A stretch of DNA of 64,000 nucleotides from Ancylobacter tetraedralis (GTDB taxonomy: Bacteria > Pseudomonadota > Alphaproteobacteria > Rhizobiales > Xanthobacteraceae), in assembly GCF_014195655.1 (NCBI RefSeq), contig NZ_JACICD010000008.1, forward strand, positions 62,001 through 126,000, in the 5' to 3' direction. Each line of letters opens with the position of its first letter. Position 1 is the first letter of the stretch. The position numbers and the translations under genes were made by a program. The notes beneath the pieces are model-generated. The model did no database searches, was not told the DNA's origin, and was given only the letters and a program-made list of their open reading frames with translations. Below are positions 4,539 through 48,431 of the stretch, one piece after another.

Positions 4539-4636
4539 GGGAGGTTGGCGGTGGACGAGCCACTCGCCAACCGGGTCAGGTCCGGAAGGAAGCAGCCCCA
4601 ACGAGCCCGTCTCGGGTCGCATGTCAGCCTCCCACC
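4539..4636 (+). ncRNA. ffs: Signal recognition particle RNA (4.5S-type)
   Basis: The invariant SRP domain IV core GGTCAGGTCCGGAAGGAAG followed by CAGCC is present at about 4574-4597. It holds the GGAA tetraloop and the asymmetric loop that binds the Ffh M domain. The ends pair: GGGAGG at 4539-4544 with CCTCCC at 4628-4633, and the 5' arm GGTTGGCG can fold back on CGCCAACC. This is the roughly 100-nt form lacking the Alu domain, as in other Proteobacteria. The RNA works with Ffh and FtsY in co-translational membrane targeting. Placement immediately upstream of dnaX is conserved in many alphaproteobacteria. Exact ends are inferred from pairing and promoter position. Confidence 0.93.
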
Positions 4637-45153: not shown

Positions 45154-45353
45154 AGGGTTTGGGTTGGCAACCTCGTGTCGGCATTATGTACCACGGATAC
45201 CGCCAATCGCTATGCGCTCCGGCCATTTTCCGTCGCAGCATCAGGCGCCCCACAGGTTTGACGCCTGCCGCGCGGACGCCTAGAAGCGCCGGGAACACGC
45301 GCCACGCCGCCGGCCCGCCGCGCGGCCGACGGCTTCATCCCCGGATCGCCCCC

Positions 45354-46466
45354 ATGTCCTTCAACACCTTCGGCCATCTGTTCCGCGTGACCACGTTCGG
45401 CGAGAGCCACGGCCCGGCGATCGGCGGCGTCGTCGACGGCTGCCCGCCCGGCATCCGCTTTCGGCTGGAGGAGATCCAGGCGGCGCTCGACAAGCGGCGC
45501 CCGGGCCAATCGCGGTTCACCACCCAGCGTCGCGAGCCCGACGAGGTGAAGATCCTCTCCGGCGTCCTCGCGGAGGCGGACGGCATGCTGACCACGACCG
45601 GCACGCCGATCGCCCTGCTCATCGAGAATGTCGACCAGCGCTCGAAGGACTATGCGGCGATTTCCGAGAGCTACCGCCCCGGCCATGCCGATTATGCCTA
45701 TGACGCGAAATACGGCCTGCGCGACCATCGCGGCGGCGGGCGCTCCTCGGCGCGCGAGACGGCGGTGCGCGTCGCCGCCGGCGCCATCGCGGCCAAGGTG
45801 CTGGAGGGCGTCACCCTGACCGGGGCGCTGGTGCAGATGGGCGACATCGTCATCGACCGCGCCAACTGGGACAGCGCCGAGATCGGCCGCAACCCGTTCT
45901 TCTGCCCGGATGCGGCGGCGGCTACGCGCATGGAGGCCTATCTCGACGGCATCCGCAAGGCCGGCTCCTCGGTCGGCGCGGTGATCGAGGTGGTGGCCGA
46001 AGGCGTGCCGTCGGGCCTCGGCGCCCCGCTCTATGGCAAGCTCGACGCGGATCTCGCAAGCGCGCTGATGAGCATCAACGCGGTGAAGGGCGTCGAAATC
46101 GGCGAAGGCTTCGCCAGCGCCGCCCTCACCGGCGAGGCCAATGCCGACGAGATGCGCATGGGCAATGACGGCCGGCCGGTCTTCCTCGCCAACCATGCTG
46201 GCGGCATTCTCGGCGGCATTTCCACCGGCCAGCCGGTGGTGGTGCGCTTCGCGGTGAAGCCCACCTCCTCCATCCTCACCCCGCGCCACACGGTGACGCG
46301 CCATGGCGAGGATGCCGACATCGTCACCAAGGGCCGCCACGACCCGTGCGTGGGCATCCGGGCCGTGCCGGTGGGCGAGGCGATGGTGGCCTGCGTGCTG
46401 GCGGATCATCTGCTGCGCCATCGCGGGCAGGTCGGCACGCCGCCGGTCTGGCCGTTTCCACGCTGA
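45354..46466 (+). CDS. aroC: Chorismate synthase
   Basis: A 370-residue FMN-dependent enzyme of the shikimate pathway. The N-terminal [33 protein letters not shown] is the family signature 1. [39 protein letters not shown] is signature 2. [11 protein letters not shown] and the C-terminal [19 protein letters not shown] complete the enzyme. The ATG before MSFNTF is decided by homology; an upstream open stretch is non-conserved. In many Rhizobiales fabI precedes aroC; here the divergent CorC/HlyC gene does. The family needs reduced flavin, which the riboflavin gene 0.7 kb downstream indirectly supports. Confidence 0.97.
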
Positions 46467-46599: not shown

Positions 46600-46998
46600 A
46601 TGACCAGCCCGTATCATGCCGTTATCTGGATCGACCACCACGAAGCCCGGATCTTCCATTTCGACAGCACCAGCGCCGAACGTGTGGTGATCCATCCCGA
46701 GCACCCGGTGAAGCACGTTCACCACAAGGCGAACGCCGTGGGCGATGGCCGCTCGGCGGAGGACCAGGCCTTCTTCCATCACGTCGCCACCGCCATCGCC
46801 GATGCGAAGGCCGTTCTCGTGACTGGCCCGGGTGGCGAAAAGGACCTGTTCGTCAAGCATGTCGAGCATCACGACCCAAAGCTGAAGGCGCTGATCGCCG
46901 CCGTCAAAACGGTGGATCACCCCACCGACAACGAGTTGGTCGCGCTGGCGCGCGCCGCCTTCCATGCCGACCACCAGTCGCCGCAACGCTCGGCCTGA
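46600..46998 (+). CDS. Small His-rich eRF1-domain-like protein
   Basis: A 132-residue cytoplasmic protein: YHAVIWIDHHEARIFHFDSTSAERVVIHP, then VKHVHHKANAVGDGRSAEDQAFFHHVATAIADAKAVLVTGP and VKTVDHPTDNELVALARAAFHA. It matches the family annotated as translational machinery protein in Rhizobiales, related to the third domain of archaeo-eukaryotic release factor eRF1. It has 15 or more histidines, mostly within the first two thirds. GAGG lies 7 nt from the ATG. Function is unproven; ribosome-associated or stress roles are only suggestions from the fold. An imperfect inverted repeat, GCGTGC...ACCC-N6-GGGT-GCACGC, lies upstream (about 46505-46534). Confidence 0.75.
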   Translation: MTSPYHAVIWIDHHEARIFHFDSTSAERVVIHPEHPVKHVHHKANAVGDGRSAEDQAFFHHVATAIADAKAVLVTGPGGEKDLFVKHVEHHDPKLKALIAAVKTVDHPTDNELVALARAAFHADHQSPQRSA

Positions 46999-47057: not shown

Positions 47058-47119
47058 TTTCAGTATCGCTGAAAATGCAATAATCTTTTATTGCAGCTGA
47101 AAAATGCCGATCCTATACT
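47058..47119 (+). promoter_or_regulatory. Promoter and palindromic operator of the HTH-RibB gene
   Basis: The -35 element TTGCAG (47091-47096) and -10 element TATACT (47114-47119) are 17 bp apart, the best promoter match in the window. A perfect palindrome, TGCAATAA-N4-TTATTGCA (47076-47095), overlaps the -35 element. A second inverted repeat, TTTCAG-N5-CTGAAA (47058-47074), lies just upstream, and GCTGAAAATGC recurs as GCTGAAAAATGC over the spacer. The expected start of transcription (about 47126) coincides with the ATG at 47127, so the message would be nearly leaderless. I see no conserved FMN-riboswitch elements here. Confidence 0.75.
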
Positions 47120-47126
47120 GCTGCGC

Positions 47127-48431
47127 ATGAAGCTTGCGGATTGGTTGACCCTCACCGGCACGACGCGCAGCGCCTTCGCGCGCGCCGCCGGCCTGTCGCC
47201 GGCCAGCATCACCGCATTGTGCAACGACCAGCAGGCCTGGGTCTCCCGGGAAGCGGGCGCGCGCATCGCCGCCGCAACAAGCGGGGCGGTGACGCCGAAC
47301 GACTTTCTCGGAATTGATAGCGTCGAGGTGGCATTGATGAGCGACAATCTGCAAGCCCGCGTGGAAGCGGCGATCGAGGCCTTTGCGCGGGGCGAGATGC
47401 TGGTCGTCACCGATGACGACGACCGCGAGAACGAGGGCGACATCATCGTCGCCGCCCAGTTCGCCACGGCGGAAAAGCTCGCCTTCATCGTCCGCCACAC
47501 GTCCGGCATCGTCTGCACGCCGCTGCCGGCGGAATACGCCAAGCGGCTGCGCCTCAGCCCGATGGTCACGGACAATGACGCGCCGCATTCGACCGCCTTC
47601 ACCATCTCCGTCGATTACAAGCACGGCACCACGACCGGCATTTCCGCCGAGGACCGCACCGCCACGGTGCGCGGCCTCGCCAACCCCAATGCCGGCGCCG
47701 CCGATTTCGTCCGCCCCGGCCACATCTTCCCGCTGATCGCGCGCGAGGGCGGGGTGCTGATGCGCTCGGGCCATACCGAGGCGGCGGTCGACCTGTGCAA
47801 GCTGGCCGATCTGGAGCCGGTCGGCGTCATCTGCGAGCTCGTGAATGATGACGGCACGGTGATGCGCGGACCGAAGGTTGCCGACTTCGCCGCCCAGCAC
47901 AAGCTGACCCGTATTTCGGTGGCCGACCTCATCGCCTATCGCCAGCTGCGCGAGAAGCTGGTGACGCGCACCGCCGAGTTCACCGCGCCCACCGCGGTCG
48001 GCGACATGCACGCTATCTCCTATGTCACGCCGTTCGAGCCGGTGAATCATATCGCGCTCGTGCACGGCAAGATCGGCGACGGGCGCGACGTGCTGGTGCG
48101 CCTGCACCGCGCCGACCCGATCGGCGACGTGTTCACCGGCGGCAAGGCGATCCGCGCCTCGCTGGAGCGCATCAAGGCCGAGGGGCGCGGCGTGCTGGTC
48201 TATCTGCGCGACGGCACCACCGGCGTGCCGGTCAACACAATCGGCAGCGACGAGAAGCAGGAAAGCTCCCGGCTGCGCGACGAGAACTGGCGGGAGATTG
48301 GCCTCGGCGCCCAGATTCTGCGCGATCTCGGCATTTCCTCGATTCGCCTCCTCGCCTCGCGCGCCCGCACCTATGTCGGCGTTGCCGGCTTTGGAATCGA
48401 GATCCTCGGCACCGAGACGCTGGACGTCTGA
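47127..48431 (+). CDS. ribB: 3,4-dihydroxy-2-butanone-4-phosphate synthase with N-terminal HTH and degenerate GTP-cyclohydrolase-II-like domain
   Basis: 434 residues. Residues about 1-62 look like a Cro/YdaS-type helix-turn-helix (TRSAFARAAGLSPASITALCND, then SREAGARIAAATSGAVTPNDFLG). Residues about 75-275 are the RibB domain, with catalytic DDDDRENEGDII, HSTAFTISVD and RPGHIFPLIAREGGVLMRSGHTEAAVDL. Residues about 283-430 resemble GTP cyclohydrolase II, but the zinc cysteines (C-x10-C-x-C in RibA) are absent, so only RibB activity is expected. There are two possible starts: the ATG used here, next to the promoter with no leader, and an ATG at 47337 preceded by GAGGTG at 6 nt that would make the enzyme without the HTH. 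Codon use in the HTH part is as GC-rich at third positions as the rest. Confidence 0.9.
   Translation: MKLADWLTLTGTTRSAFARAAGLSPASITALCNDQQAWVSREAGARIAAATSGAVTPNDFLGIDSVEVALMSDNLQARVEAAIEAFARGEMLVVTDDDDRENEGDIIVAAQFATAEKLAFIVRHTSGIVCTPLPAEYAKRLRLSPMVTDNDAPHSTAFTISVDYKHGTTTGISAEDRTATVRGLANPNAGAADFVRPGHIFPLIAREGGVLMRSGHTEAAVDLCKLADLEPVGVICELVNDDGTVMRGPKVADFAAQHKLTRISVADLIAYRQLREKLVTRTAEFTAPTAVGDMHAISYVTPFEPVNHIALVHGKIGDGRDVLVRLHRADPIGDVFTGGKAIRASLERIKAEGRGVLVYLRDGTTGVPVNTIGSDEKQESSRLRDENWREIGLGAQILRDLGISSIRLLASRARTYVGVAGFGIEILGTETLDV

Follow-up and report, generated by a model that had tools for sequence, protein, structure and literature searches.

A probable autogenous repressor-enzyme: RibB fused to a Cro/C1-type DNA-binding head with a predicted operator at its own promoter

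Described regulator-enzymes and the HTH-RibB gene

Riboflavin synthesis in bacteria is explained mostly by the FMN riboswitch. In autogenous enzyme-regulators such as PutA, NadR and BirA, a DNA-binding domain is fused to an enzyme and governs genes of the enzyme's own pathway. Within flavin metabolism, RbkR is an archaeal HTH-riboflavin kinase, reportedly described by Rodionova in 2017; neither an internal start nor a leaderless arrangement is known to us for it. A related enzyme architecture is that of RibBX, which we take to be RibB with an inactive RibA-like domain. RbkR is tabulated as a bifunctional regulator and enzyme, and an HTH-less orthologue exists (PMC8305020). In Wolbachia, the XRE-type proteins wBmxR1 and wBmxR2 are described as activating ribA and binding promoters of secretion genes as well (PMC3518464).

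Here we analyse a gene of Ancylobacter tetraedralis, HTH-RibB, within a 64,000-nucleotide stretch of DNA (the window). The plus strand of the window carries, in this order, a chorismate synthase gene (aroC, 45348-46466; identified with Pfam), an open reading frame of 132 residues without a Pfam family over the cut-off (46600-46998) and the HTH-RibB gene (47127-48431), which encodes 434 residues from the ATG at 47127. The protein consists of an HTH-like head (residues 1-62), a linker, a RibB (DHBP synthase) domain (residues 80-271, at 47364..47939; PF00926, E 4.5e-84) and a degenerate, RibX-like GTP cyclohydrolase II domain (residues 281-428, at 47967..48410; PF00925, E 2e-30), and is 100% identical (rounded) to a protein of another genome, G016. 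Elsewhere in the window, a bacterial small SRP RNA was found at 4540-4635 (Rfam RF00169, 53.8 bits).

The original prediction had called this protein a RibB enzyme, which is borne out by scores far above the cut-offs (PF00926, 281.2 bits versus 26.4; TIGR00506, 241.5 versus 177.45), but it had missed the second enzyme domain. The stretches DDDDRE-EGD and RSGHTEAA are invariant among 25 aligned proteins, and because no second RibB match was found in the genome of the window, HTH-RibB is probably its working RibB copy. Homology of the C-terminal domain to GTP cyclohydrolase II is clear (PF00925, 106 bits, over the cut-off of 23.3), yet the RibA equivalog model TIGR00505 scored 44.9 bits against a cut-off of 205.85, and when 2bz0, a GTP cyclohydrolase II of known structure, was used as the alignment partner, the cysteine positions that we take to be the zinc site of that enzyme were replaced or deleted in the window protein. 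For these two reasons the enzyme body is read from its sequence as RibB followed by a dead RibA-like domain. An AlphaFold model of the full-length protein (pLDDT 65.8, pTM 0.46) was of little use.

Past residue 77 the architecture is that of RibBX, and the structure 6mnz aligns over both enzyme domains, whereas RibBX and 6mnz lack the HTH head. With PutA, NadR and BirA, HTH-RibB shares the joining of a DNA-binding domain to an enzyme of metabolism and, from comparison only, a specific site at its own promoter; it differs in that those enzymes are unrelated and have established ligands, and in that its predicted target is its own gene alone. RbkR and HTH-RibB both join an HTH and a flavin-synthesis enzyme in one polypeptide, but RbkR is archaeal and contains another enzyme, and the domain matches of the window protein were limited to RibB, a RibA-like domain and weak HTH hits, without the riboflavin kinase domain that marks RbkR. 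By analogy, HTH-RibB would operate in the manner of PutA, NadR or archaeal RbkR, but on the basis of a different enzyme. The Wolbachia proteins resemble it in that they, too, are XRE-type HTH proteins of an alphaproteobacterium with a riboflavin gene among their targets, and differ in being separate proteins that activate and have additional targets among secretion genes. An enzyme controlling its own pathway through a fused DNA-binding domain is thus already known, and among the titles and abstract openings listed from the open-access literature no description of HTH-RibB was found; a term search for helix-turn-helix returned zero occurrences in three riboflavin papers (PMC13028884, PMC4418817 and PMC12542839).

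The N-terminal head and its distribution

The head (47127..47312, plus strand; recognition helix at about residues 25-33) had been proposed to be an HTH domain of the Cro/YdaS type. A profile search with residues 1-70 showed similarity to the HTH families YdaS, HTH_31 and HTH_3 (E 0.002-0.005), but all matches fell below the cut-offs (18.1 bits versus 30 for YdaS, PF15943; 18.3 versus 27 for HTH_31; 17.3 versus 23 for HTH_3), and no HTH model of Pfam or NCBIfam exceeded its cut-off for the window protein. A profile built from 20 relatives retrieved YdaS/Cro proteins from the PDB at E of about 0.009-0.012, the closest solved sequences being the YdaS/Cro-type phage regulators 8c7k and 8co2 (E 0.0086-0.012), which are stand-alone phage proteins, in contrast to the fused head with its score under the Pfam YdaS cut-off. 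From the alignment of the 20 relatives, AlphaFold produced a confident five-helix head (pLDDT 88.5), and with this model Foldseek gave Cro/C1-type DNA-binding domains as the best PDB matches at TM scores of about 0.73-0.75, among them CapH, DNA-bound HigA and DNA-bound SinR, with a best E of 0.05 and none at or under 0.001; 8c7k was among the fold matches as well. The modelled head has a Cro/C1-type HTH fold, so that the proposed HTH is upheld by the model, by its structural matches and by its presence in all 30 genomes of the genus, while its scores stay below the curated profile cut-offs.

The full HTH-RibB fusion occurs in 30/30 genomes of the genus that were searched, the window's included, in several further families among the matches listed for 199 genomes of the order, and, among the matches listed for 241 genomes of the class, in one family outside the order (f84). 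When named genomes were searched with the HTH part only, 80/80 of the best coding stretches out of 270 were fused to RibB; many of these genomes are the same as those in the other samples. Genera with the fusion within these best 80 of 270 include Ancylobacter, Xanthobacter, Aquabacter, Azorhizobium, Bosea, Labrys, Stappia, Pannonibacter, Roseibium, Breoghania, Prosthecomicrobium and others. In total, 182 HTH-RibB loci were collected, of which 149 were unique after removal of duplicates; L103, a stub of 10 bases, was excluded. A FastTree tree of 183 proteins, from which 11/49 HTH-less and 4/149 HTH loci were left out, requires at least 10 changes of HTH presence, at least six of them forced by supported branches, and on this ground the head is read as having been gained or lost repeatedly.

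Operator, promoter and the recognition helix

Upstream of the gene the original prediction had noted a perfect palindrome overlapping the -35 element, a second inverted repeat and repeated GCTGAAA motifs, and had taken the palindrome as the operator. The palindrome, TGCAATAA-N4-TTATTGCA at 47076..47095, is real and does overlap the -35 element, which is the case for it as the operator in the window; comparison across loci, however, makes that role barely credible. It is private to the genome of the window and exact in 1/149 unique loci, and relatives that keep the HTH head with the same recognition helix are without it; the form CAATAA-N4-TTATTG was present in 2/149 unique loci and the looser GCAAT-N4-8-ATTGC in 8/30 members of the genus. 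The palindrome was therefore rejected, and the predicted conserved operator is TTTCA-N7-TGAAA. The second inverted repeat, TTTCAGTATCGCTGAAA at 47058..47074 (centre -61 from the HTH ATG), turned out to be a perfect copy of it, putative operator site 1, and is the only exact match of the site-1 consensus in the genome. Putative site 2, TTTTATTGCAGCTGAAA at 47086..47102 (centre -33), has one mismatch and covers the -35 hexamer; neither site has a strand. The GCTGAAA repeats are present as well, as half-sites of the same motif.

Within the genus, the upstream site lies at -60/-61 in 30/30 members (perfect in 27, one mismatch in three). A weaker copy with up to two mismatches is recognisable at -32/-33 in 23/30. 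Allowing one mismatch, an operator was found in 58/68 HTH loci, 30 of which come from one genus, versus 0/49 HTH-less relatives, for each of which 330 bp were scanned, at a chance rate of 0.13% in shuffled 100-bp upstream regions; the proposal that the gene has an operator at its promoter is thus supported in the sense that the site accompanies the head. The exact core of either operator type described below was likewise seen in 0/49 of the HTH-less relatives, and in the named genomes an operator was located between -80 and -20 in 78/80 loci (the best 80 of 270). Counting only independent events, six supported pairs were available for HTH presence against operator, with on average 3.8 for the association, 0 against and 2.2 without difference (median p 0.125), where the operator labels on this tree score family f23 as without a site.

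Regarding site positions, 111 loci with alanine at residue 30 of the recognition helix were compared at up to two mismatches. The upstream site was present in 102, the -35 site in 93 and both in 85, leaving 17 with the upstream site alone and eight with the -35 site alone, and the positions form sharp clusters at -60/-61 and -32/-33. In 99/99 loci with both a site near -33 and a placed -35 hexamer the two overlap, a count that is largely built in, as sites were counted only if centred between -42 and -26; the real result near -35 is the sharp position of the site rather than the overlap. In a search for further targets with the site-1 consensus, seven genomes gave nothing above background outside the locus (four matches, all with two mismatches, versus four for the reversed control). 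A wide regulon is thus not supported at the control level of these matches, and in the seven genomes the sole predicted target is the HTH-RibB gene itself.

The promoter proposed earlier, TTGCAG-17-TATACT, is in place on the plus strand, with the -35 hexamer at 47091..47096, a spacer of 17 bp, the -10 hexamer at 47114..47119 and the HTH ATG at 47127, 7 nt beyond TATACT. Its near-leaderless character agrees with the comparison: a TANNNT box ends 5-9 nt upstream of the HTH start in 112/149 loci (9.4% in shuffles), exactly 6 nt from it in 91 of the 149, and the best -35 lies at 17 bp in 88/112 loci with a placed -10 when spacers of 16-18 were tried. A Shine-Dalgarno sequence of at least four letters precedes the HTH start in only 5/149 loci and none in the other 144. 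From this geometry we infer that the HTH-RibB transcript would be leaderless.

The operator itself varies with the recognition helix. Residue 30 is alanine in most loci and glutamine in most of family f41, in f84 and in f23. Loci with Ala-30 carry TTCA-N7-TGAA in 110/111 cases and the T-type core in none; the 62 loci with Gln-30 carry [AT]TTA-N7-TAA[AT] in 48 cases, the TTCA type in five, both in one and neither exactly in eight. This T-type pattern is a broadened one, extended to take in f23 once that family had been inspected; before widening, the 32 Gln-30 loci were divided into 19 T, five C, one with both and seven with neither, and with a first, stricter definition of the site the expected type was found in 105/111 Ala and 13/32 Gln loci. 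In f23 (30 of the 38 matches that start at residue 1 or 2 were counted), the palindrome is nearer the start and lies over the presumed -10, with at most one mismatch to TTAGC-N3-GCTAA in 27/30 (0.08% of shuffles). We initially considered it as a separate operator and dropped this, as it has the same TTA-N7-TAA core. The sole Ala-30 locus without the TTCA-N7-TGAA core is that of Pseudovibrio hongkongensis (L187), a fusion with no core operator in 85 bp and an upstream region that looks different.

Independent events are few, with five residue changes and six operator changes on a tree that omitted 16/175 loci (those with a residue other than Ala or Gln, those with both operator types or with none, and those of insufficient length); there were two independent residue-operator pairs on supported branches, never in the opposite direction, which is not significant. 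Within f41 as labelled, p was 0.24, with one Ala locus left and hence no power. With these few independent changes, base 4 of the operator appears to follow residue 30 in the recognition helix of the fused head. In the 434 repressor, Gln33, the equivalent residue, contacts bases, so that pairing of Gln-30 with a T:A pair would be chemically sensible, and the pairs of recognition helix and operator would constitute a natural specificity series. These data also bear on whether another transcription factor binds TTTCA-N7-TGAAA while the head has a different role, e.g. in oligomerisation. Binding of the operator by the head is a prediction from comparison, which leaves room for such a factor, but the operator is absent where the head is absent (0/49), the site-1 consensus occurs at this promoter only in the seven genomes, and base 4 tracks a residue of the fused helix, and we regard another factor as very improbable.

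The internal start and the proposed mechanism

A second in-frame start had been pointed out at the junction between head and enzyme, and both of its elements are in place on the plus strand: GAGGTG at 47325..47330, an internal Shine-Dalgarno sequence 6 nt before the ATG at 47337 (Met71), from which a candidate second product, an HTH-free RibB enzyme, would extend to 48431. A junction ATG or GTG with a Shine-Dalgarno of at least four letters was retained in 130/146 unique loci (146 of the 149 were counted) versus 6.5% of control windows of equal length inside the HTH; at six or more letters, the values were 37/146 and 0.0%. In linkers without an ATG, GTG makes up 29/44 Val codons versus 373/1091 overall, and in the larger f23 set the start with its Shine-Dalgarno was found in 22/30. 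Such persistence across families speaks for use of this candidate start. It might also be an unused relic of the ribB start from before the fusion, a reading compatible with autoregulation: many HTH-less relatives have their first Met just upstream of the RibB domain, at about the same place as Met71, and a recognisable Shine-Dalgarno is absent at the junction in 16/146 loci, including the close relatives of the window L004, L005, L007, L008 and L013. Its retention together with the Shine-Dalgarno in 130/146 loci, across families with differing linkers and often as GTG, makes a relic rather unlikely.

Head, operator, their association, the covariation of residue and base, the promoter geometry and the conserved second start emerge from the comparison of sequences, and the reading that we favour as likely is that of an autogenous repressor-enzyme fusion able to yield an HTH-free enzyme as well. 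Transcription would begin at or beside the HTH ATG, giving the full-length protein from a leaderless mRNA. RibB forms dimers, and the RibB part of the fusion is expected to do so too, which would set two HTH heads on TTTCA-N7-TGAAA. Because site 2 covers the -35 hexamer, its occupancy should block RNA polymerase, and site 1, located 28 bp upstream of site 2, could take a second dimer. As RibB rises, ribB mRNA would fall, and the internal Shine-Dalgarno and junction start may supply HTH-free enzyme from the same mRNA, with the consequence that output of enzyme and repressor could differ; a leaderless and internal-start layout of this kind would be a simple route to unequal amounts of regulator and enzyme from one gene. 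The RibB active site and the dead cyclohydrolase domain are candidates for small-molecule sensors.

The head may also bind the same operator and activate, or serve as a homeostat, with activation from site 1 and repression from site 2. Activators work from positions such as -60/-61, where site 1 is centred, and the 17/111 Ala loci with the upstream site alone (at up to two mismatches) do not fit repression from -35 only. For the XRE-type wBmxR1/2 of Wolbachia, activation of a ribA promoter reporter is described (PMC3518464). On the other side, the -35 site is present in 93/111 Ala loci, the best site of family f20 sits at -35 and the f23 palindrome covers the presumed -10. Owing to the 17 loci and to the largely built-in overlap count we weighed repression lower and activation higher, and still hold activation or a homeostat to be improbable next to autogenous repression.

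Beyond repression, a more far-reaching scheme is conceivable, in which one leaderless mRNA gives both the repressor-enzyme and the enzyme without a head, and a pathway metabolite such as ribulose 5-phosphate, GTP or a flavin is sensed by the enzyme body, either at the RibB active site or in the dead cyclohydrolase domain, and causes the HTH head to be released. HTH-RibB would then be the protein equivalent of an FMN riboswitch, gained or lost several times in Alphaproteobacteria; we consider this scheme possible, if doubtful. No FMN riboswitch was detected in the window or in its genome, and among 80 genomes one was present in 19, where by-eye comparison of coordinates always put it more than 150 kb from ribB or on a different contig. 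Because these riboswitches lie away from ribB, absence of one says little about ribB control. By our assignment of these 80 genomes, riboswitches were found in 3/41 genomes with the HTH versus 16/39 HTH-less genomes; a replacement of the riboswitch by the HTH was considered and set aside, since none lies at the ribB locus and any link is indirect. In Alphaproteobacteria, members of numerous genera (Ancylobacter, Xanthobacter, Azorhizobium, Bosea, Labrys, Stappia and others) appear to control the RibB step through the enzyme's own DNA-reading head.

Two further fusions were observed. In one genome (G064, locus L080, around oriented position 610), RibB is joined to an XRE-type HTH of another kind, possibly an independent fusion, with an upstream palindrome GTTGCCA-N3-TGGCAAC that is equalled by 29/1000 shuffles; the only other genome of its family is without the fusion, and the locus was left out of all operator counts. 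In f84 genomes (L243, L244, L246, L248 and L249), a related HTH head of about 40% identity precedes another enzyme of ~520 residues that resembles glutamine synthetase (by eye only), with a GTG start just downstream of a -10-like box, so that the layout of HTH-RibB recurs in another HTH-enzyme fusion.
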